Assembly: GCF_024721975.1 (NCBI RefSeq)
Contig: NZ_JANQBB010000009.1
Span: 132,923 to 196,922 of the forward strand
Origin: Paenibacillus endoradicis
GTDB lineage: Bacteria; Bacillota; Bacilli; Paenibacillales; Paenibacillaceae
Direction: 5' to 3'
DNA length: 64,000 nucleotides
Made by a program: the position numbers and the translations under genes. Of this stretch, positions 36,691-49,426 are shown piece by piece; positions within the stretch are counted from its first letter, which is position 1; every line of letters begins with the position of its first letter. A model generated the notes under the pieces. The model was not told the DNA's origin, did no database searches, and saw nothing but the letters and a program-made list of their open reading frames with translations.

Positions 36691-37956
36691 CTAACCTAGT
36701 AATGTTTTATACATCAAATACAAATTCAAACAAATAACAAGCCCAGAAATCGCCCATGCACATATTGTTGTCACACGAAGGTTAACGAGCTCCCCCATAA
36801 TTTTCTTATTGCTTGTAAACATAATTAAAGGTACCAACGCAAAAGCAATTCCGAACGAGAGAATTACCTGACTAATTACAAGTGCTTTAGAAGGATTTAC
36901 TCCTAGAAGAATAATAATTAATGGAGGAAGCATCGTTATAGCTCTTCTTAAATAAATAGGTATTCTCCTTTTTATAAATCCTTGCATTACTACATCACCG
37001 GTCATTGTTCCTACTGATGAACTAGATAACCCCGCTGACAATAAACCAATTCCAAATAAAATAGCTGCTGATGGACCTAACATTAATCCGAATTGATGAT
37101 ATGCCACGTCAATATCTTCCACAATTAACCCATTGTTATGAAATAACGCTGCAGAAACTATTACCATCGCTGCGTTAATGCCACCAGCAATAACCATTGC
37201 AATGATAATATCAATAAATTCAAATTTAAATATCTTTTTTCGTTGAATCTCATTTTCTCCAACTATTCTTTTCTGTGTTAATGAGGAATGAAGATAAATA
37301 GCATGTGGCATGACCGTAGCACCAAGCATGCCTGCAGATAATAATATACTCTCAGTTCCTTCAAATTTTGGAGTGAATAATCCTAATAAAATTGAAGTAG
37401 AATCAGGTTTGGCATAGAACACTTGCGCCCCAAAAGCGATAACTACAACTATAACCATCCCTGTAATAACCGCTTCAAATGCTCTTAATCCTTTTCGTTG
37501 TATTTCCAAAATTGCGAATGAACCAATCGCCGCAATAATAGCCGATGTTAGCATGGGAAGATCAAACAGCAAATAAATACCTAATGCGGCTCCTATAAAC
37601 TCCGCTAAATCCGTTGCCATAATAACAACCTCAGCTTGTATCCACAATAAAATAGATGTTTTTTTCGTGAATTTTTCACGACACATTTCTGATAAATTTT
37701 TCCCTGTACTTATCCCTAATTTAGCCGACAATGATTGAATTAGAACAGCCATTAAATTCGATGCTAAAATAACCCATAATAAAGTATATCCATATTTAGA
37801 GCCCGCAGTTATATTCGTAGCATAATTTCCTGGATCGATATAAGCTACTGCAGCTATAAAAGCCGGGCCCAAAAATGGCAGTAATTGCTTTATCCCTTTA
37901 GAACGTCCATCCAAAGAATGTGATGCGGATTGACTCAATGCATCTAATTTAGACAT
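36691..37956 (-). CDS. mntH: Nramp-family divalent metal (Mn2+) transporter
   Basis: The chosen start is ATG 37956 (MSKLDALSQSASHS), with AAGGGG upstream; ATG 38001 is an alternative. The product is 421 aa with 11 predicted helices. The metal-binding DPGN in helix 1 (AYIDPGNYATN) and MPH in helix 6 (ATVMPHAIYLHSS) are intact, as in MntH proteins that import Mn2+ with protons. No clear MntR box is seen upstream; a perfect 10-bp palindrome ACCAATTGGT lies at 38042-38051. Confidence 0.92.
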   Translation of the reverse strand: MSKLDALSQSASHSLDGRSKGIKQLLPFLGPAFIAAVAYIDPGNYATNITAGSKYGYTLLWVILASNLMAVLIQSLSAKLGISTGKNLSEMCREKFTKKTSILLWIQAEVVIMATDLAEFIGAALGIYLLFDLPMLTSAIIAAIGSFAILEIQRKGLRAFEAVITGMVIVVVIAFGAQVFYAKPDSTSILLGLFTPKFEGTESILLSAGMLGATVMPHAIYLHSSLTQKRIVGENEIQRKKIFKFEFIDIIIAMVIAGGINAAMVIVSAALFHNNGLIVEDIDVAYHQFGLMLGPSAAILFGIGLLSAGLSSSSVGTMTGDVVMQGFIKRRIPIYLRRAITMLPPLIIILLGVNPSKALVISQVILSFGIAFALVPLIMFTSNKKIMGELVNLRVTTICAWAISGLVICLNLYLMYKTLLG

Positions 37957-38151
37957 AGATCTTTCAGCCCCTTTTCTTGCACTGAACTCAAATTGTTGCA
38001 CTCACGCAAATTTAATCATACCAATATTATATGTTCAATAAACCAATTGGTCAAAATAATAATCTCTGAGTTTGTCCTTATTCGATATTATCTACCCTAT
38101 ATCATATAATGATTCTTCATTATATTTTTGATCCATTTTTTTGCATATAAA

Positions 38152-38194
38152 AACCCGTAAGATAGCACAACTACAAGTGCTTATCTTACGGGTT
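38152..38194. terminator. Terminator of the cobalamin-riboswitch operon
   Basis: AACCCGTAAGATAGCAC pairs with GTGCTTATCTTACGGGTT (one bulge). On the minus strand it is followed by T-rich sequence. It closes the two-gene B12 operon. Confidence 0.85.
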
Positions 38195-38234: not shown

Positions 38235-39155
38235 TCATTTCGAATCTCCCGCTACATATCCGCCCACATCTCGACCAAGATCACAAGTATATACCCACTC
38301 CACAACGTCTCCATCTTGTAACGTATATCGACTAGCTCCATAATTCGGAAACCATTCATTAACTTTATACATCCATCCACTTAATTCTCCACAATCGAAT
38401 TCATATATATTATTAATTCCTTCAATGTAGTTACTGTTATAGATGGGAGTCATCTCGAATTCCATATGAATCTTATTAGCTTTCATCTCTCGCAATAAAA
38501 CATCAAAAACTGATTCGCCTTCATAGAAAACAACTTTTTTCGCTTTATATATGATGCCATCCTTCGGAAGAACCTCAAGCTTATCCTCGTTGAAAATATT
38601 AAGATTATTAAGAATGGTTTCAGCTGAAACAGATAGTGTAACGGTTAGCTCTTTATTTTTATCAATTTCTACATCTTGCCACTCGACAGGCTTTGGTTTT
38701 CCAGATGGAATAGGATCCGTTTCATACTTTTCCTTTTCCGGTTCATTAGGTGCTACAGTCACTTTTGGCGTAGCTACAGGTTTAGTCGTTGGCTTAACTG
38801 GTGGTTTAGTAGAGGTGGGAGCTATTGTGTCATCCGACTTTGTCTGTTGCTGATTTTCTGACTCTTCCTTTGTTTCACTATCGACCGCATCTGTTGACTC
38901 CGGAGCAATGGATTCAATGTCCGTATCATTCGCTCCAGCTTCTATTTCATCGGAGTCTTCTGATTCTATAGTATCACCGACTTCATCGTCACCTTGAATC
39001 AATGCTGAATCTTCATTATTAGTAGTTGAATCTACAACTTCAGTAATTGGATCGATCGTTGTTATCGTTTTTTTCTGAAAATCTCCTCCCCAGAAAAATG
39101 CTGCAATAAGGATACCGACAATCACAACTGCTGCTAACCATTTCTTTCTATTCAT
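38235..39155 (-). CDS. Membrane-anchored DUF4430 (transcobalamin beta-domain-like) protein
   Basis: A 306-aa protein. Residues 5-23 are an N-terminal membrane anchor or signal. Residues 30-155 form an acidic then Pro/Thr/Lys-rich linker able to cross the wall. Residues 205-293 match DUF4430, the fold of the C-terminal domain of intrinsic factor and transcobalamin: FDCGELSGWMYKVNEWFPNY and LQDGDVVEWVYTCDLG. Two Cys (255, 291) could form a disulfide. TGGAGG precedes the ATG. It is the second gene of a unit controlled by a cobalamin riboswitch, behind a protein carrying the alpha-barrel half. Corrinoid binding is inferred. Confidence 0.85.
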   Translation of the reverse strand: MNRKKWLAAVVIVGILIAAFFWGGDFQKKTITTIDPITEVVDSTTNNEDSALIQGDDEVGDTIESEDSDEIEAGANDTDIESIAPESTDAVDSETKEESENQQQTKSDDTIAPTSTKPPVKPTTKPVATPKVTVAPNEPEKEKYETDPIPSGKPKPVEWQDVEIDKNKELTVTLSVSAETILNNLNIFNEDKLEVLPKDGIIYKAKKVVFYEGESVFDVLLREMKANKIHMEFEMTPIYNSNYIEGINNIYEFDCGELSGWMYKVNEWFPNYGASRYTLQDGDVVEWVYTCDLGRDVGGYVAGDSK

Positions 39156-39179
39156 CCAATAACCTCCACATTAAACAAT

Positions 39180-39209
39180 TAAGCAAAGGCAATTACAAGC
39201 GCCTCTGCT
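39180..39209 (-). terminator. Intercistronic stem-loop in the B12 operon
   Basis: AAGCAAAGGC pairs with GCGCCTCTGCTT around 8 nt, with no good T run. It probably adjusts mRNA stability between the two genes. Confidence 0.45.
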
Positions 39210-39224
39210 TATTGTGCAAATGTT

Positions 39225-40871
39225 TTATTTTACATCGGTCATATCATAAAGTCTGTTCTTATTAGTAAGAAATCTCTCATAAGAAGATAGTGCGTAGAAG
39301 GCTTGATCCGTCGCCATTAGATCAACCTCACCTGGCTTCGCGCCTCCATTATCTGCACCGCCAGATTTCACATGATAGAATCCGCCATTAGATGAAGCAT
39401 AGCCTAATAGTGCGTCAACGACAGACTCGCCATTTTTAATAAATCTTGTATCTTGATCAGGATTAATACCAAGACCTGTCAACGCTACGACCACTTGTGC
39501 AATACTTTCAGAGTTAGCTGCACCCCAACTTGTATAAATTCCGTCAGATTGTAAAACAGTAGATAACCATGCCAGTCCTCGGTCAACTGCAGCTTTCACT
39601 TTAACATCGCTCTTGTAATACGGTGTCAAACCTTGAACAGCCATCGCTGTAATATCAGTGTCTGCTTCCGTTGGATTACTCCCCAATGCCCATCCTCCAC
39701 CAGCAATTTCTCTATCTAATATAAATTGAATTAGTAACTCTCTTGTTGTTTGTGTTTTGACACCTTCAACTTTAAGAATTTCATAATTCTTACTATCTAA
39801 CGCAATAAGTGCAAAGATCGGACCATTGATTCCTTGCTTAATTAATGTCTCATAATCCGCAAGTGGCTTTCTCAAATCATATCCAGCTACATCTTTGATA
39901 TCTTTTCCAATCGCAGTAAGTGCTAAAATAACTCTATCATATTCAGTGTACTTTACATTATGAAGTTTTCCGGCATTGTCTTTAAGAGTCTGTACAACAT
40001 TTCCATAATATTTAGCATAATAGGCTTGATCAATTTGCTTACCAGAACGTGCCAGGCCGAACACAGTCCAATCGCCGCCAACGCTAGCTATGATAGGATC
40101 TGTTACTGATCCTAGTAAAAACGTAGCTGTTTTTTTTAGCTGATTATTAATTTTAGTAACTTCTAATGATGTTATGTAAGCTTCAGTATCTTGCTTATAC
40201 AAATAAGATCTTACAGCAACAACTGCAGCCATTTCTCTCGTCACTGCAGCTTGTGGATTAAAACCTGCTGCATCACCAACGATAATACCTAATCTTACTA
40301 CTGCTTCAACATCGAGCTTAGCCCAAGCTGAAATTTTATTAATATCTTTAATCGAACTTTTAGAAGTGTCTGTTGTAAGCTTCAAAGCTCTAGATATAAT
40401 TACTGCCATTTCTTCACGAGTAATTGTTGCCTGTGGATTGAATTTATTGTTATAACCATTAATAAGACCATTTTTGTAAGCTACATTAACATAATCGTAG
40501 TGCCAATCCTTACTTGCAACATCGGCGAATGAAATAGTTTGCTCCACATCAGTTTCAAGATTTAATAGTAATACTAATATTTTTGTGAATTCTGCTCTAG
40601 TAATCGATGATTGTGGATTAAACTTACCGTCACTACCTTGAATAAATCCTTGATTAGTTGCTTGTTGAATAGCAACGACTGCCCAAGATGAGATTGTATT
40701 GTAATCGCTGTATAGTGCTTTGATTGAAGGCTTAGATGTTGGCACTTGATCAGTTTCAAGGCTGGAGCTTTCATTATTAGTATTTGCCAATGATACAGAC
40801 GCATTGGTCATAAATGTCGATAATATTAAACTAACAATCAGTAACCACGCTAACCATTTGTTCCTTCTCAC
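39225..40871 (-). CDS. SLH-anchored alpha/alpha-barrel (intrinsic-factor N-domain-like) protein
   Basis: The start is GTG 40871 with GAGAGGAG upstream; the product is 548 aa. Residues 1-29 are a signal peptide. Three SLH domains (about 57-103, 113-165, 173-225: FNPQSSITRAEF, FNPQATITREEM, FNPQAAVTREMA) bind wall polysaccharide. Residues 240-540 are prenyltransferase/squalene-cyclase-like alpha/alpha repeats (GGGWALG..PTEADTDITAMAVQGL; NSESIAQVVVALTGLG; DLMATDQAFYALSSYERF). This is the fold of the N-terminal cobalamin-binding domain of intrinsic factor. It lies behind a cobalamin riboswitch and next to a DUF4430 protein, so surface corrinoid capture is the leading hypothesis. Confidence 0.87.
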   Translation of the reverse strand: MRRNKWLAWLLIVSLILSTFMTNASVSLANTNNESSSLETDQVPTSKPSIKALYSDYNTISSWAVVAIQQATNQGFIQGSDGKFNPQSSITRAEFTKILVLLLNLETDVEQTISFADVASKDWHYDYVNVAYKNGLINGYNNKFNPQATITREEMAVIISRALKLTTDTSKSSIKDINKISAWAKLDVEAVVRLGIIVGDAAGFNPQAAVTREMAAVVAVRSYLYKQDTEAYITSLEVTKINNQLKKTATFLLGSVTDPIIASVGGDWTVFGLARSGKQIDQAYYAKYYGNVVQTLKDNAGKLHNVKYTEYDRVILALTAIGKDIKDVAGYDLRKPLADYETLIKQGINGPIFALIALDSKNYEILKVEGVKTQTTRELLIQFILDREIAGGGWALGSNPTEADTDITAMAVQGLTPYYKSDVKVKAAVDRGLAWLSTVLQSDGIYTSWGAANSESIAQVVVALTGLGINPDQDTRFIKNGESVVDALLGYASSNGGFYHVKSGGADNGGAKPGEVDLMATDQAFYALSSYERFLTNKNRLYDMTDVK

Positions 40872-40912
40872 TTCAAAACTCCTCTCAATTTCCCTATCAG
40901 ATCAATAATCAC

Positions 40913-40946
40913 AATAAAAAACCTCTTACGATGAGTTAAGAGGTTT
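40913..40946 (-). terminator. Riboswitch expression-platform terminator
   Basis: On the minus strand AACCTCTTA pairs with TAAGAGGTT around 8 nt and is followed by six T, 42 nt before the start codon. It lies between the cobalamin aptamer and the SLH gene, as expected for B12-triggered premature termination. Confidence 0.85.
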
Positions 40947-41019
40947 AAAATTACGTTAAATTGTCATTTGCACGCAAAAATAAACACCTTCCTATCCATC
41001 GTAGAAAAATTGGTGTGAA

Positions 41020-41190
41020 ACGAAAGGCAGGTATTCTGGCTCAAGAATTATCATTTATGCTACCTTCCCAGTTACCCAGTGGTATTAAGCATAAACTTCT
41101 CTTTTACAGCGGCGGGACCGCGTGGGATTTGCACCCACTTCCCTTTTAACCAATAGGATCTATACAGAATCAACATTGGCACCTAACGTT
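41020..41190 (-). promoter_or_regulatory. Cobalamin riboswitch
   Basis: The minus strand carries the conserved cobalamin aptamer: GGTGCC at 41178-41183, the core GGGTGCAAATCCCACGCGGT, then CCCGCCGCTGTAA, a variable arm, and the B12-box GCCAGAATACCTGCC (41026-41040). All blocks are in canonical order. It precedes the SLH/alpha-barrel and DUF4430 genes; cobalamin binding should reduce their expression through the terminator at 40913-40946. Confidence 0.95.
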
Positions 41191-41210
41191 GGATATACAA
41201 TTATTTGTTC

Positions 41211-42715: not shown

Positions 42716-43768
42716 TTATTCAATGACTAATTTATTATATATATTCTCGTTAATTTGAACGTTAGCTTGACTTAACCGTTGGCTTACCTTTTGCTCGAGT
42801 TGTCCTTTAACATGTATCTGGATTACTGCACTTTTAACATCATCAAATTTCTCAAAGCCTTTATCCTGTTTTTCTAGAAGTCTATACATAACTAATTCAT
42901 TACCTTTTGTATCTATTTCGTTGAAATCTCCTTCGTTTGAATCTGTAAACAATTCATTTAAATAATACGAAAGCGTGTCATCCTTTGAAGCCTCATTTAT
43001 GTTTAACGCCAATTCTTCAACTTGAACCGTTGCCGCTAATGAAGCGACTGCCTGCTCTACCGAAATATCTTTCGTAGCTGTAAGCTGCTGAACTTTCTCC
43101 AATATCTCTTTCGAGTTTATATCGTTAACTATCGTTATTTTCTCATATTTGAAGTTATATCCTTTATGGAAATAAAGTTGTTTCATTTCTTCATACATTT
43201 GTTGTATAGCATCATCAGACAGCACAGCTAAAGCTTCCTGCGTTAATTTATCAACTAGCTTTTGATAATTAATACTGTGCAAGTAAGAATAATACTCGAG
43301 TGTCCCATATACCTTAGGACCATAGATGGGTTCATTGTTTTTTATTTTATTTTGTCTATCAATGTTTTCAATTTCTAAATTTTTCAAAAAAGAATCATAT
43401 GAAATATCGCTAACAATTTCATTTTCTTTCATCAAGATTTGCTCAATCTTTAATAGCAGTAATTGATCCATAACCTGCTGCTTAGCATACTCTAGCGGAT
43501 TTTCACCTTCATATGTCGTAGTCCAAAAATTCTCGCTATAATCTACATTATAAGTTTGTTTGAAATAACTGGTCGTTAATGCCTTCTTTTCTTGCAAAAT
43601 AGCATTAAACTCCGCTTCCTTCACCTCATAAGTATCGATGGTGAATACAACCTCATTATTCTCTTCCCCCGATGACATTCCAAGCGATATAAATAAGCCG
43701 ATAGTAATAGCAGCCAGTAAGCATATTATACCAATAACACGATTCCGAGTAAGTATGTGCAGTTTCAT
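42716..43768 (-). CDS. Membrane-anchored PrsA/SurA-like foldase 2
   Basis: A 350-aa protein. Residues 10-32 form an N-terminal anchor with no lipobox. Residues 40-150 match a SurA-type N-terminal chaperone region, including YFKQTYNVDYSENFWTTTYE and GENPLEYAKQQVMDQLLLLK. A rotamase-like region follows. It is a paralogue of the protein at 62629-63675 (YFSQTYGAEYNEHFWDTDFE; GENPVQVARENAL). The two flank the dockerin-enzyme cluster. GAGGAGG precedes the ATG. Probable role: folding of large secreted enzymes. Its promoter carries the shared cluster element at 43829-43846. Confidence 0.8.
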   Translation of the reverse strand: MKLHILTRNRVIGIICLLAAITIGLFISLGMSSGEENNEVVFTIDTYEVKEAEFNAILQEKKALTTSYFKQTYNVDYSENFWTTTYEGENPLEYAKQQVMDQLLLLKIEQILMKENEIVSDISYDSFLKNLEIENIDRQNKIKNNEPIYGPKVYGTLEYYSYLHSINYQKLVDKLTQEALAVLSDDAIQQMYEEMKQLYFHKGYNFKYEKITIVNDINSKEILEKVQQLTATKDISVEQAVASLAATVQVEELALNINEASKDDTLSYYLNELFTDSNEGDFNEIDTKGNELVMYRLLEKQDKGFEKFDDVKSAVIQIHVKGQLEQKVSQRLSQANVQINENIYNKLVIE

Positions 43769-43935: not shown

Positions 43936-44961
43936 TTACTTATCTAAGCTCAACAGACGTAATATCATTACTGTAGCTTCCGCTCTTGTTGCATTATCGT
44001 TCGGTAAAAATTTATTGCCGCTGCTACCTTGCATAATTCCTTTATCAACTGCTAGTTCTACCCAACCTTTAGCCCAACTTGGTATGCTGTTGCTATCAAC
44101 GAATGTTAGTTTTTCACCGTCGGTAGCTTTCAAGTTCAAGCTACGAGCAACCATCACCGCAATTTCTGCTCTCGTTATTGGTTGGTCTCCTCTAAAGCTA
44201 TTATCTTGATAACCTTGGATAAATCCTGCTGTTACGACCTTTGCAACGTCAGATTTTGCCCAATTCGGGATTTTGCCTGCATCAATGAATTTAAGCTCGT
44301 CTTGTGCTTCTAGCTTCAACGATCTTGATAGCATTACTGCAAATTCGGTCCGTGTAATGGAACCGTTTGGCAAGAACTTCCCTCCTGGATATCCATTAAT
44401 TAAACCTTTGCTTGCTGCTTCAATAATCGATGCTTCAGCCCAATGACCTTTAATATCAGTAAATGAAACTGGATTCACAATCGTTTCTGAAATATTAAGA
44501 GATGTCGTTTCATTTACTACATAACTATTATCTTGAAGTTGACTGTTCACCACTTTCATAGCATTCCAGTTCACTACTGCTATACCGCTTTCCTTTGCTT
44601 TAAATGTTAATGTTCCAATCAGCACATCTCCATTTTCGCCAGCACTATTTCCAACCTTCGTATGAGCAATCGTAATTTCTTTATCCTTTTTAATTGGAGC
44701 TACGGAAAATCCTTTTAATTGCGATTTAGCTTCCGTTAATTCTAGCTTAGCAGGATCATAAGTGAATTTAGCTTCATAAGCATACATATCATTTAGTTTT
44801 TTTCCATTCATCGTCAACGTAACAATTTCTCCTGCTTTAAGTTCTAGCTTGTCAGACGTTAATTGAAACTGTGGAGTACTTGCTGCAAAGGCAGAACCTT
44901 GCATGATACTAACCGTACACATGATACTAATTAATAAAAACATAACTATTTTTCTCTTCAT
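43936..44961 (-). CDS. Cohesin-SLH cell-surface anchoring protein
   Basis: A 341-aa protein: signal peptide (1-27), one cohesin domain (about 31-158: FQLTSDKLELKAGEIVTLTM, YAYEAKFTYDPAKLEL, GDVLIGTLTFKAKESG), then three SLH domains (165-213, 222-275, 285-341; SITRTEFAVMLSRSL, PITRAEIAVMVARSL, NATRAEATVMILRLL). This is the layout of single-cohesin anchoring scaffoldins, which hold dockerin proteins on the wall. The three genes with C-terminal dockerins lie beside it. It has no promoter of its own visible and is probably read through from the beta-helix gene, past a hairpin at 45003-45023. Confidence 0.9.
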   Translation of the reverse strand: MKRKIVMFLLISIMCTVSIMQGSAFAASTPQFQLTSDKLELKAGEIVTLTMNGKKLNDMYAYEAKFTYDPAKLELTEAKSQLKGFSVAPIKKDKEITIAHTKVGNSAGENGDVLIGTLTFKAKESGIAVVNWNAMKVVNSQLQDNSYVVNETTSLNISETIVNPVSFTDIKGHWAEASIIEAASKGLINGYPGGKFLPNGSITRTEFAVMLSRSLKLEAQDELKFIDAGKIPNWAKSDVAKVVTAGFIQGYQDNSFRGDQPITRAEIAVMVARSLNLKATDGEKLTFVDSNSIPSWAKGWVELAVDKGIMQGSSGNKFLPNDNATRAEATVMILRLLSLDK

Positions 44962-45002
44962 ATGTGTCCACTCCTATTAGATATTGGGATTATCGTAAAA
45001 CA

Positions 45003-45023
45003 GGAGAAGAATAATTCTTCTCC
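45003..45023 (-). terminator. Intercistronic hairpin
   Basis: GGAGAAGAAT pairs with ATTCTTCTCC with essentially no loop; the minus strand follows with TGTTTTAC. Probably a partial terminator between the beta-helix gene and the anchor gene. Confidence 0.6.
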
Positions 45024-45048
45024 CATTTCACGATCCTATATTCGCTAT

Positions 45049-48000
45049 TTAGTTCAATAATATTGTTTGCGCAATGATAGCCAAATCTTCAATATCAATT
45101 TTGCCATCATAATTCACATCGAATTGTTGGATATTAATCCAATTTGCATCGGTATGATCTTTGCCATAATGTGCAGCTATCATTGCCAGATCTCCAACTG
45201 TTACTTTCTCATCGTTATTTAGGTCTCCTGGTACTCCAGTCTTTTTAGCAGTAACCTCTACACTTAGAGAGGACAATTCAGCTACGATGTCATCTCCTTG
45301 TGCATTACCAAGCTCAGCAAAAGTAATCGCAATGATACCCGTTTTAGTAACACTAAGTGGTTTTGCTTTGAACATCAGCCCTAAAATCTCGGCATCTGCT
45401 GAAATTTCGTTTCCTTCACCAAGACTTGCAATTACAAGACGAATTTCACCAGCTTTCTGTTCATCTGGTTGTAAAATCGTAATACGATCACCTACTAATG
45501 AAGATACTCCTGTAAACTCATATAGATTTGCATCATAATTTAAAGTGATTTCTTGGCTGTAGAAGCTTTGTCGTACATCGCTTAATCCGTATTTAACGGT
45601 AAATGTGCTTCCTTGCTCTACAGACTTCGAACCAGTCAATGTCGTTGATAAAGCTTTTGGCTTATCAATAGCGATTTTCAATGCATCCGTAGTTACCGTT
45701 GTTTTTTCACCATTTGCAGCATACTTAATGTTGTCAAAAGCAAATGTACGTCCATTCGCTTTATCCCAAACAAATGCAAGATTAATGCGATCAAAGCTCT
45801 TAATTGCTGTGGTCGTTTTCACAAGCTGATCATCAATATACATTTTTAAATCAGTACCTGATGTATAGTCCCATTTCAGTTCATGCCAACCTACTGTACG
45901 CACAATACCAGTATCTTCCCATGCGGTAGCAGAATTACTAGCTCTAACCGAGTAATTGTCTTTATTGCCGGTGCTTCCACCATCATAAAACACTCCCATA
46001 GCAACTAAAAGGTTGGTACGAAGATTGCCGACATGTGCAACAGCTCTTGTTGCTCCTGCTTTGGTGCCATCATCATAAAGCATCATTGTTACGATACCTT
46101 GTTGATTTGGAGCAAATGTTTTCTCAATCGCTGGTGGTTCATTATACAGTGCGCTGCTATTACCATGATACGAAACTTTATTAGTAACAACTGGGCCTGC
46201 TCCAGCTGTAGGCGGACTTTGCTCTGTTACGAACTCTCCCAAACCTTTTTCAAAGCTTTCAGAATAAACAAGATTTGTATACTCTTTGATTTCAGCAGAT
46301 ACATTAATTTCATTAACGGTTGAAAGATCACCATTAAAAGTGAGTTTCCCTGTCTCCTGATCGATAACTGCACCAGCATGATCCGCAATATATTGCGCTT
46401 TATAATAATCTGGGTTACTTATTTTGCTATCATCGTTCATTTGACCATCAATTCTCAATTGAACTGTATTTTTGCTGTCAGACAATAGTGCATCATCTGA
46501 AGCAATGATGTAGTTAGTGAATTTAGCAATAATGATCGTTGTCTCAAATACGCTAACTGCTCTATTTAGTGTAACACCTGCTGCATCAATTACTTCTGGC
46601 GCAGCAGCTTGATCGTCATGCACATCTTGAGCAACGCGTATAGCTTTTTGTAGTTCAGCTTTGGCTGCAACCGGATATTGTCCTGGCTTCGTACCTTCCA
46701 CTGCAGCATCGTACACTACCTGTGCCTCATCAATCAATTCTTGCAATACGCTGCGGTCTCCTGGCTGTGCAAAGTAACTTTGATATAATGTCGCAACTTC
46801 TGTTGCACTAAGCGCCGTATTGTATACATTCATCTCATCAAGTAAGCCTTTGTAAGCCAAATTACCTTTGCCATCAGCACCAATATTAATTGGAAGCGTA
46901 GTATCGATATTACCCGCATTGGCAATAGAAATTGTTTTTACTTGCTTATTATCGACGTAGAATACCGCATCTCCCGTACGATTATGAGAAATTGCGATAT
47001 GGTGCCATTCATTATCACCTACCTTAACAACTGTAGGTTTAAAATCAAGTCGATCCTTACTAGAACCTTTATAGTTCCAAATTAAGTTGCCTTGGTACAT
47101 ACCGATTATCCAACCTTGATTGGCACCACTTGCCCAGTCTTTATTAGAAATAATCGTCGTATCAGCTCCATTTTGTCCGTCTGATTTCATCCAAAATGAT
47201 ACTGTAAAGTTCTGATTCGCACCGAACTGAAGATTAGATGGTTTACCTGCACTAATATAAGATTGTCCTGATTCTGTTGGGTTTAGATTAATTGCTTTGC
47301 CCGCAATGCCAGGTCCTTTTACATAGCTAAGGTTGTTGAAAGAAGTAAGTGGAATATTATAAGGTGATTCATCTAGCACATTGTTCTCAAATTTCATCTT
47401 AAGAACATGACCAGCTGCAGGTGTCACTGAAGTAACTGCAATTGTCGCCTTCACAGTTGAATCCACAACGCTCTCTGCTGTAATAACTGCGTTACCTGCT
47501 GATACAGCAGTAACATAACCATTAGCATCAACAGCGGCAATTGCTGGATTGCTGCTTGACCATTTCACACCATTAAATGTAGCAGCAGTCGGCAAAACAT
47601 TCGCCTTAACAGTTGCTCCATACTTAGCTGCCGTAAATACAAGCTCACTTTGATCAAGCGTGATCGAAGCTGGCATTACTTCAGGATTAATATTAGTTGG
47701 TGCATCATTCGAATATTCATGGGCACCAATATCAACTTTATCCGTAAGTGGATTGTTGAAAAAGTCTTTAGTTGCAGCTGACCATACGCTTGGCGCTATA
47801 CCTGACATATCCAAGCCTGCATCAATCGCTGGAGATCCTGAAAGCAATTTATAACCGTTTAGTTTTTCTACATCAAATGATCCCAGACCAACGATATCTT
47901 TTGGTTCTTCACCCGCTCTTGCAAATTGAGGGCTAACGAACAGATTATCCTGCAATGAAAGATTTGTAAGATTTGCATCTTGATAACCATTACCCGGATA

Positions 48001-49374
48001 GAAAATATTATTTTTCACTTCACTACCAGCAGCAAATTGAGTTTGTCCAAATGTTGTATTTGCTTTGGAGTAGAAGATGTTATTGTACATTCGCAAATAT
48101 TTTCCTGGATCGCTAACTAGTTTGGTATTGATATGTGAATCTGTAAAGAATGTATTGTTGTGAATTACTGGAGCAGCTGACTTAGTTGTCGGCAAGTAAT
48201 GGAATATGTATCTACCATCTCCATCATTAACACTCACATTGTAACGAACTAATGAGTTTGTTGAACTGTGCATAAATAAAATGAAGCCACCGCGGTTACT
48301 ATGGCTATAGTTATATTGGTAAAGCGTTCCTTCGCTGAACATATCAATGTCGAATGCTTGACCATCGTTGTAGCCGAAAACGCCACCATACACTTCATTA
48401 TATTGTATCGTCATGTCCTTCACGCCGATTACCCATAATCCAGCGTAATTTACATTACCAACATTTTTGTTCGAATGACGCACAACTGTGTTGTATTCCA
48501 TTCGTCCGTTTGTTCCTACATTACTCATAACAAAGGCATCACCTTGTGTATCTTCAACATAGTTATTACTAAAGATAACGTTTTCAAATCTTCTTGGAAA
48601 GTTTGCATCGATGTCGCCTTCTTTATATAATCCAGCGTTTCTAATCCCTTCAATATCTACGCGCTTCACAATATTACTGTCAATGAGCACGTCAGTAATG
48701 TTACCAAGGATTAGAATACCACCACTTCCAACTTTCCAACCTGTGGGATTTCCATCTACATCGTGAACATAGTTGTTCGTGATTACAATACCACGGTGTT
48801 GATTAGCTTCCCATTGCGTCGTATTCGTTGACGTTGTTCTAATATTAATGCCTGCTCGTTGAGAAACAACGTTAGGATTTTTATTTGTAAGTTCGAAATT
48901 ATGGAATTGCAAGTAACTCCCATCTACCACATCAATTACAGCAGATAACGTTTTGTCTTTTATAGAAGTATAGTTTTTAACAATGGCTGACTCTTCTGTC
49001 GTTGTTGTCCCATTTCCGTTGATGATCGGTCTTACATTTACATCAATGCTTCCATATTTATCAAATACGATTGGAGCATCTTTTGTACCCGATGTATTTC
49101 TTAGTTTAATCGAACCATTCCACACATCCCCAGCTTTGAATAAAACTTTATCGCCAGCTTGAAACTTTTGACTGTTAACCTTATCCAGCGACTGCCAAGG
49201 ACTTGACTCTGATGTGCCGTTATTGTTGTCGTTCCCTTCGGAAGAGCTAATATAATAGGTTGTGCCTGAAGCTGCGTGTGCCACACTTGGGGATAACGCT
49301 GGAGCAAGTAGTGTAAGCATCAATGCAAATACAATAAATAAGCGGGTCATTTTATTTACCTGACTTTTTCCCAT
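45049..49374 (-). CDS. Secreted parallel beta-helix enzyme with LamG, FIVAR, cohesin and dockerin
   Basis: The start is ATG 49374 (MGKSQVNKMTRL) with GGAGG 8 nt upstream; the product is 1441 aa. Order: signal peptide (1-35), right-handed beta-helix (36-560, with DGQAFDIDMF and YQYNYSHSNRGGF), Big2 Ig domain (567-650), LamG (656-866), FIVAR (872-945), a second concanavalin-like domain (1035-1220), cohesin (about 1245-1378), and dockerin (1381-1441: GDLNNDEKVTVGDLAMIAAH; DVNYDGKIDIEDLAIIAQ). The beta-helix is a paralogue of that in 58896-62606 and is probably a polysaccharide lyase or hydrolase, family undetermined. Carrying both cohesin and dockerin makes chain assembly possible. Confidence 0.87.
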   Translation of the reverse strand: MGKSQVNKMTRLFIVFALMLTLLAPALSPSVAHAASGTTYYISSSEGNDNNNGTSESSPWQSLDKVNSQKFQAGDKVLFKAGDVWNGSIKLRNTSGTKDAPIVFDKYGSIDVNVRPIINGNGTTTTEESAIVKNYTSIKDKTLSAVIDVVDGSYLQFHNFELTNKNPNVVSQRAGINIRTTSTNTTQWEANQHRGIVITNNYVHDVDGNPTGWKVGSGGILILGNITDVLIDSNIVKRVDIEGIRNAGLYKEGDIDANFPRRFENVIFSNNYVEDTQGDAFVMSNVGTNGRMEYNTVVRHSNKNVGNVNYAGLWVIGVKDMTIQYNEVYGGVFGYNDGQAFDIDMFSEGTLYQYNYSHSNRGGFILFMHSSTNSLVRYNVSVNDGDGRYIFHYLPTTKSAAPVIHNNTFFTDSHINTKLVSDPGKYLRMYNNIFYSKANTTFGQTQFAAGSEVKNNIFYPGNGYQDANLTNLSLQDNLFVSPQFARAGEEPKDIVGLGSFDVEKLNGYKLLSGSPAIDAGLDMSGIAPSVWSAATKDFFNNPLTDKVDIGAHEYSNDAPTNINPEVMPASITLDQSELVFTAAKYGATVKANVLPTAATFNGVKWSSSNPAIAAVDANGYVTAVSAGNAVITAESVVDSTVKATIAVTSVTPAAGHVLKMKFENNVLDESPYNIPLTSFNNLSYVKGPGIAGKAINLNPTESGQSYISAGKPSNLQFGANQNFTVSFWMKSDGQNGADTTIISNKDWASGANQGWIIGMYQGNLIWNYKGSSKDRLDFKPTVVKVGDNEWHHIAISHNRTGDAVFYVDNKQVKTISIANAGNIDTTLPINIGADGKGNLAYKGLLDEMNVYNTALSATEVATLYQSYFAQPGDRSVLQELIDEAQVVYDAAVEGTKPGQYPVAAKAELQKAIRVAQDVHDDQAAAPEVIDAAGVTLNRAVSVFETTIIIAKFTNYIIASDDALLSDSKNTVQLRIDGQMNDDSKISNPDYYKAQYIADHAGAVIDQETGKLTFNGDLSTVNEINVSAEIKEYTNLVYSESFEKGLGEFVTEQSPPTAGAGPVVTNKVSYHGNSSALYNEPPAIEKTFAPNQQGIVTMMLYDDGTKAGATRAVAHVGNLRTNLLVAMGVFYDGGSTGNKDNYSVRASNSATAWEDTGIVRTVGWHELKWDYTSGTDLKMYIDDQLVKTTTAIKSFDRINLAFVWDKANGRTFAFDNIKYAANGEKTTVTTDALKIAIDKPKALSTTLTGSKSVEQGSTFTVKYGLSDVRQSFYSQEITLNYDANLYEFTGVSSLVGDRITILQPDEQKAGEIRLVIASLGEGNEISADAEILGLMFKAKPLSVTKTGIIAITFAELGNAQGDDIVAELSSLSVEVTAKKTGVPGDLNNDEKVTVGDLAMIAAHYGKDHTDANWINIQQFDVNYDGKIDIEDLAIIAQTILLN
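46540..47409. repeat. Duplicated LamG-FIVAR module, copy A
   Basis: It encodes residues 656-945 of the beta-helix protein. The protein sequence is closely similar to the module at 50444-51286 (shared runs such as SNKDWASGANQGW and WHHIAISH). The copies share order and spacing, so one was duplicated or transferred between the genes. Confidence 0.8.
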
Positions 49375-49426
49375 TTCATATTCCTCCATACTCATATTTT
49401 GTGTAAATGATTACTAGCCAATATCT

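Follow-up and report, generated by a model that had tools for sequence, protein, structure and literature searches.

The gene pair and its leader

A 64-kb stretch of the Paenibacillus endoradicis genome (64,000 nucleotides; contig NZ_JANQBB010000009.1, positions 132,923 to 196,922), here termed the window, contains two adjacent genes that lie behind a cobalamin riboswitch on the minus strand. The first gene, at positions 39225..40871 (-), is predicted to encode a 548 amino acid surface protein with a signal peptide, three SLH repeats and an alpha/alpha barrel. The second gene, at positions 38235..39155 (-), is predicted to encode a 306 amino acid membrane-anchored protein that displays an N-terminal hydrophobic stretch, a low-complexity linker and a DUF4430 domain. 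The pair is analyzed here as a candidate for corrinoid capture at the surface of a Gram-positive cell.

The riboswitch aptamer is at positions 41009..41201 (-) and matches RF00174 with 111.6 bits (E-value = 3.9e-27). The match spans model positions 1–189, the full length of the model, and the gathering score is 31.5. It is the sole Rfam match at the gathering score in the whole window. With a covariance model (R1) made from the window riboswitch and those of 18 of the 80 loci described below, all of which were first located with the Rfam model, the score is 185.9 bits, a value that is partly circular as the window sequence is one of the 19 in the model. A terminator-like hairpin with a U-tract is found between the aptamer and the first gene at positions 40919..40946 (-) and is the likely expression platform. 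The energy of this hairpin is unexceptional (z = -1.26; 28 of 200 shuffled sequences fold equally well). Terminator-like hairpins are present in 50 of 62 orthologous leaders, where 6.4 are expected from shuffled sequences. A full cobalamin aptamer and a terminator ahead of the pair were part of the original prediction and both are present.

The SLH-barrel protein

The three SLH repeats are at residues 61–227 (40191..40691 (-); PF00395, E-value = 4.6e-36), as is found in SLH wall-anchored proteins, and would fix the chain to the wall. The remainder of the chain, residues 229–548 (39228..40187 (-)), is predicted to be an alpha/alpha barrel and is the putative counterpart of the alpha domain of intrinsic factor and transcobalamin. 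The AlphaFold2 model, based on 65 aligned sequences, has a mean predicted local distance difference test (pLDDT) score of 92.2 and displays 13 helical segments of at least 4 residues within positions 229–535, which fits an alpha6/alpha6 barrel. The SLH-anchored alpha/alpha-barrel protein that was predicted from the DNA is thus upheld on both counts.

Relatives of the barrel are found in several directions. Pfam gives a match to SQHop_cyclase_C in the barrel region that is weak and below the cut-off. A PDB sequence search with the protein and with its alignment A1 shows SLH chains, cyclases and alpha-2-macroglobulins and no transcobalamin. In a Foldseek comparison with the PDB, SLH domains lead and are followed by a squalene-hopene cyclase; transcobalamins (8ixt, 7qbe, 4zrp, 2bb6, 2v3n and 7qbg, E-values 1.7e-3 to 8.3e-3) are among the 50 matches listed, together with cyclases, farnesyltransferases, glycosidases and many other alpha/alpha barrels. 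PF01122, the animal carrier family for the alpha domain, is not among the 25 families listed of the 28 in a tally of 65 barrel members.

The barrel itself is well conserved, i.e. 86 of 309 columns are at least 90% conserved over 65 rows. The cobalamin contact residues of transcobalamin, Q86, T134, Y137, D176 and S227, are opposite barrel residues E310, Q346, N349, D406 and S456 in the profile alignment when this is read by eye, and each of the latter is kept in 64–65 of the 65 rows. With so many columns conserved in any case, this comparison is a lead and not a test.

The barrel could be a surface enzyme instead of a binding domain, either one that is terpene-cyclase-like or one that acts on a cobamide or polysaccharide. 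In the PDB, squalene-hopene and drimenyl diphosphate cyclases are closest to it by sequence, and the fold matches add sugar epimerases. However the cyclase acid motif DxDD is present in none of the 65 barrels, and eight of nine cyclases from related genomes show it as DVDDT, DIDDT or DVDDS. The barrel is also exported, wall-bound, under a B12 riboswitch and linked to ECF-CbrT, and an enzymatic role is highly improbable.

The DUF4430 protein and its relation to animal cobalamin carriers

The DUF4430 domain is at residues 213–290 of the second protein (38286..38519 (-); PF14478, E-value = 9.8e-18) and is the putative counterpart of the transcobalamin beta domain. The hydrophobic N-terminus and the low-complexity linker were read from the sequence, and together with the domain they agree with the membrane-anchored DUF4430 protein with a linker that was expected here. 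Of the best 120 matches, the other 119 display 75–95% identity over residues 150–306, and many invariant columns are grouped around the motif GELSGWM. Some of these DUF4430 matches are named “Transcobalamin-like C-terminal” domain protein in UniRef, and a DUF4430 domain at the C-terminus of TCN proteins has already been noted (PMC4350170). Thus the kinship of DUF4430 with transcobalamin is not new. One DUF4430 protein, P0121, begins with a lipobox-like sequence and appears to have a long stretch around its domain in a near-identical tandem duplicate.

A PDB search with the single DUF4430 sequence, or with the narrow alignment A2, does not show transcobalamin. With a more diverse profile of 15 rows (A6), the transcobalamin-2 beta domain, 5no0_A, ranks at the top of 177,635 PDB sequences (E-value = 0.033).

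Profile-profile comparisons were made with hhalign against a five-sequence alignment of transcobalamin, intrinsic factor and haptocorrin, with 200 column-shuffled decoys. The DUF4430 profile matches the animal beta domain with a probability of 96% and the barrel profile (39 diverse rows) matches the animal alpha domain with a probability of 82%; none of the 200 decoys reaches the score in either case. The cross pairings are within the range of the decoys (10 and 33 of 200 decoys, respectively, reach the two scores). Narrow barrel profiles give no match to the alpha domain (probability 0.1–2%). The original prediction described the two folds of the animal carriers as split over two proteins. 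This holds in that each half matches its own counterpart, but has to be qualified for the barrel, where the sequence is closer to squalene-hopene cyclases.

Linkage with ECF-CbrT genes

Homologous loci were collected by a profile scan of genome contigs with the DUF4430 alignment, and the best 80 of 525 confirmed stretches were analyzed. The loci were therefore chosen by DUF4430 and lean towards close relatives, although loci from Tissierella, Clostridium, Lutispora and Pelotomaculum are also found. A barrel gene adjoins the DUF4430 gene on its upstream side in 75 of the 80 loci. A cobalamin riboswitch is upstream in 68, and in 62 of these it is at most 1 kb from the first gene of the run, such that the relatives do not place the pair outside of cobalamin regulation.

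In 79 of the 80 loci the DUF4430 gene is followed by ECF transporter genes (EcfT, a double ATPase and an S component), and the exception, L067, has a contig that ends inside the ATPase gene. The ECF families were assigned on examples from three loci (L008, L046 and L051), and the PDB comparison covered the S component of L008 and the EcfT of L046. The S component has 6fnp_A as its best PDB match (E-value = 3.3e-13, residues 65–240), and the T component matches EcfT chains in entries that include 6fnp. The ECF linkage and the CbrT-like S component strongly support the view that the pair performs B12-controlled corrinoid capture at the surface for an uptake system encoded elsewhere.

The analysis of co-occurrence covered 245 genomes from the same family as Paenibacillus paridis (G003, the genome of locus L003), with the window DUF4430 protein (E-value at most 1e-15) and the L008 CbrT protein as queries. 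DUF4430 is found in 87 genomes and CbrT in 103. Both are present in 87, DUF4430 alone in none, CbrT alone in 16 and neither in 142 (Fisher p = 2.5e-50, a value that ignores shared ancestry). The starts of the two matches are 2.8–3.6 kb apart in 86 of the 87 genomes. For these distances one short-frame DUF4430 match per genome was used, which is not the best-scoring match in G198, G223, G240 and G258. The survey of relatives called for by the original prediction thus shows the DUF4430 gene always with CbrT, and with one exception closely linked to it.

The riboswitch-controlled nutrient could also be cobalt or another compound and not a corrinoid. The L046 T component has a match to CbiQ (PF02361), and a cobalt importer of C. 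difficile is encoded behind a cobalamin riboswitch (PMC11477304). However the L008 S component is CbrT-like, no cobalt S-component family appeared in the scans made, and DUF4430 has kinship with a domain that binds cobalamin. A system for cobalt or another such nutrient is therefore most improbable.

Fusion proteins and long multi-domain relatives

Judged by a profile made for this analysis, single-chain fusions of the barrel with DUF4430 make up nine of the 120 barrel homologues listed. In two fusions, P0077 and P0109, the barrel precedes DUF4430 as in the animal carriers, and the aligned parts are 64–65 residues apart. Both domains are found in 96 of the 331 proteins collected, although a fusion was the query in one of the three source searches.

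The adjacent barrel gene is itself long (1,285–2,486 amino acids) in 40 of the 80 loci and has extra barrel or DUF4430 domains besides the final barrel; it is shorter than 1,000 amino acids in 35 and absent in five. Five genomes with a short SLH-barrel gene were checked (G003, G006, G008, G010 and G047), and in all five a separate cobalamin riboswitch is found about 5 kb from another long DUF4430 frame. This second frame has 1,935–1,958 amino acids in four of the genomes and 1,059 amino acids in G010. The long second-locus protein of G047 (L122) displays SLH, one barrel and two DUF4430 domains. At four of the collected loci (L051, L058, L059 and L072, near 14–21 kb) a riboswitch on the opposite strand lies beside another long DUF4430 protein within the same locus.

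The fusions bear on whether the two proteins of the pair act on one ligand together. The DUF4430 protein could be a membrane-proximal receptor or a docking partner of CbrT and the barrel a separate wall receptor, both of which serve B12 uptake without forming a clamp. The gene order (among the 80 loci, which were selected by DUF4430, 75 have an adjoining barrel gene and 79 have ECF genes) and the high conservation of the DUF4430 end suit such a relay, and two proteins anchored in different places, membrane and wall, do not have to come into contact. The natural fusions, P0077 and P0109 among them, favor a common ligand site, and the relay is considered unlikely.

The split locus

Unlike the related loci, the window has no EcfT or S gene in its 64 kb, and its ATPase matches are only distant; there is thus no ECF-CbrT in the same operon as the pair. 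Of the relatives found, G047 is closest to the window; its barrel is 84.5% and its DUF4430 protein 75–78% identical. G047 is the sole unlinked genome of the 87, and its pair is at a locus without ECF genes, as in the window. Eight of the 12 window genes compared match the G047 locus in order with 74–92% identity, the pair included. Nramp and the genes at 42716–43768 and 45049–49395 have no match in the G047 stretch, and the match of 43936–44961 is confined to one part of a longer SLH protein.

In G047 the EcfT-AA'-CbrT genes are 2.66 Mb from the pair, and another cobalamin riboswitch precedes the start of EcfT by about 144 bases. The riboswitches of the pair and of the ECF locus are 78% identical to each other; each is 70% identical to the L003 orthologue and 56–62% identical to the other three riboswitches of the genome (57–62% for the riboswitch of the pair). 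As these two are nearest to each other, the simplest reading is that an ancestral operon was split and that the parts carry sister copies of its riboswitch. By analogy with G047, the window organism presumably has ECF-CbrT genes elsewhere in its genome. An uptake system elsewhere was anticipated in the original prediction, and the unbroken co-occurrence of DUF4430 with CbrT and the separate loci of G047 bear this out. The split locus represents a natural experiment where the operon has been broken up and both parts are still behind a cobalamin riboswitch.

Of the remaining riboswitches of G047, one (L124) precedes genes for a periplasmic-binding protein (PF01497), FecCD and CobU, and another (L123) precedes an RCC1-repeat protein. 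The latter arrangement (L123:5535-5734 (-) with the gene at L123:4871-2808 (-)) is also found in G010 (G010:C106:70089-68534), i.e. in 2 of 11 genomes searched for PF25390. BtuG, a Bacteroides surface B12 binder, is a beta propeller, and by analogy the RCC1-repeat protein behind the cobalamin riboswitch may be another Gram-positive B12 catcher.

Proposed mechanism

The pair probably captures corrinoids outside the membrane for ECF-CbrT, with one half bound to the wall and the other to the membrane; in intrinsic factor the two domains that capture the ligand are in a single chain. The two halves likely act as a clamp around cobalamin. An OFF action has been described for cobalamin riboswitches (PMC11477304), and the window riboswitch would act in the same direction: under cobalamin scarcity transcription would read through the leader terminator, and the two proteins would be made. 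The alpha/alpha barrel, fixed to a wall polymer by its SLH repeats, would pick up the corrinoid in the wall. The DUF4430 beta domain, on its N-terminal membrane anchor and flexible linker, would then close on the corrinoid or take it over at the membrane, and the S component of the ECF-CbrT importer would receive it. In nearly all relatives examined the importer genes directly follow the pair, and in the clade of the window the operon appears broken, with each part under its own cobalamin riboswitch.

Several findings weigh against this reading. Regarding regulation, a terminator-like hairpin at positions 39180..39211 (-), identified by a consensus scan only, separates the barrel gene from the DUF4430 gene, and the expression of the two may therefore be unequal. 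This hairpin could cause attenuation or processing and could set the ratio of barrel to DUF4430 protein. Twelve of the 80 loci have no riboswitch upstream in the locus sequence examined. In addition, 16 of the 103 CbrT genomes have no DUF4430 match at the threshold used, thus CbrT may do without the DUF4430 protein.

Other findings of this kind concern the kinship with animal carriers. The E-value of 0.033 for the DUF4430 profile in the PDB is weak when taken alone. PF01122 is not among the three families that match the barrel protein at an E-value of at most 10. No transcobalamin is found among the 50 VIA rows listed, where cyclases, sugar epimerases and SLH domains predominate, and in the Foldseek list transcobalamins are one of many fold matches; the fold alone is thus not specific for transcobalamin. 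The barrel scores 91 against squalene-hopene cyclases and 46 against the alpha domain of intrinsic factor, the cyclases themselves score 32 against that domain as a control, and nine-row subsets of the barrel profile score 25–51. Judged by sequence, squalene-hopene cyclases and not intrinsic factor are the closer relatives of the barrel. Taken with the own-half matches, the cyclase control shows that the DUF4430 link is specific and that the barrel link is at the level of the superfamily. The predicted structure of the fused protein P0077 is poor in its DUF4430 part, where the block-mean pLDDT is 33–73 over residues 671–800.

Neighboring genes

A strong intrinsic terminator closes the two-gene run at positions 38152..38194 (-). 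The folded stretch has an energy of -28.1 kcal/mol (z = -5.64) and none of 200 shuffled sequences is as stable. The Nramp metal transporter gene at 36691–38001 (-) was considered as a third gene of the run and was ruled out, as it lies beyond this terminator and is absent at this site in G047, where the gap between the neighboring genes is about 90 bases. It is located between the pair and a gene for a 195 amino acid protein, and was either gained in the line of the window or lost in that of G047.

On the other side of the pair, at 43936–49395 (-), a cohesin and SLH protein adjoins a 1,448 amino acid protein with cohesin and dockerin domains. The 1,448 amino acid protein matches PF07953 in a region that overlaps its laminin-G-like domain, and this match gives no sign of a toxin.

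Comparison with known systems

The folds of the Bacteroides surface B12 binders differ from those of the window pair. These proteins, BtuG, BtuH and the DUF4465 proteins, capture B12 at the cell surface (PMC6143338, PMC8941943 and PMC13398666), but belong to a Gram-negative outer membrane with BtuB as partner (PMC10404256), whereas the window pair is from a Gram-positive organism.

The importer has a closer precedent. The 6FNP structure is the L. delbrueckii ECF-CbrT complex, which has been shown to transport cobalamin and cobinamide (PMC5997447). The S component (L008) and EcfT (L046) encoded behind the pair in relatives are homologous to it, although the window itself has neither a T nor an S gene. 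In the available part of that paper an extracellular capture protein is not mentioned, and its main text is without the word lipoprotein. A surface lipoprotein is assigned to a cobalamin ECF transporter in PMC9963975, where it carries the label “additional lipoprotein component of putative cobalamin ECF transporter”, and the same paper places a DUF4430 protein beside rtpR in L. rhamnosus. The likeness of this lipoprotein to the window pair is by its label, and a barrel partner, an SLH anchor or a riboswitch is not mentioned in the part of that source available.

DUF4430 or one of three synonyms is named in only 7 of 5.39 million papers of the open-licence literature. Neither an extracellular capture step for Gram-positive ECF-CbrT systems nor, in the sources available in part, a description of the barrel/DUF4430 pair or its link to ECF-CbrT was found there. 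The pair is a concrete and widely conserved candidate for B12 capture in Gram-positive bacteria, with the DUF4430 protein in 87 of 245 Paenibacillus-family genomes, and it puts a likely function on DUF4430.

The C-terminal domain of squalene-hopene cyclase (PF13243) is the closest sequence relative of the barrel. However barrels of the window type are without DxDD, exported and SLH-anchored.

Intrinsic factor, transcobalamin and haptocorrin are composed of the same two domains as the pair, an alpha/alpha barrel and a DUF4430-type beta domain, and each window half matches only its own counterpart. In the animal carriers both domains are in one chain, whereas the window has two genes with separate wall and membrane anchors and a riboswitch upstream. 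The animal alpha domain belongs to PF01122, to which the window barrel shows no match, and the barrel is closer to squalene-hopene cyclases. A more speculative proposal, to which we would give only tentative weight, is that bacteria invented the architecture of the animal B12 carriers and that it works in them as a modular relay. In such a relay, a long SLH protein would contribute a complete barrel-DUF4430 module in cis, and its second barrel would pair in trans with the membrane-tethered DUF4430 protein ahead of CbrT, such that the corrinoid crosses the wall step by step. The three animal carriers would in that case be descendants of a bacterial module of this kind or share a direct two-domain ancestor with it. 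With the pair at hand, the evolutionary origin of animal intrinsic factor becomes testable. By the tests made, the window pair is not a member of the intrinsic factor family; it is proposed to work like a carrier of that type.

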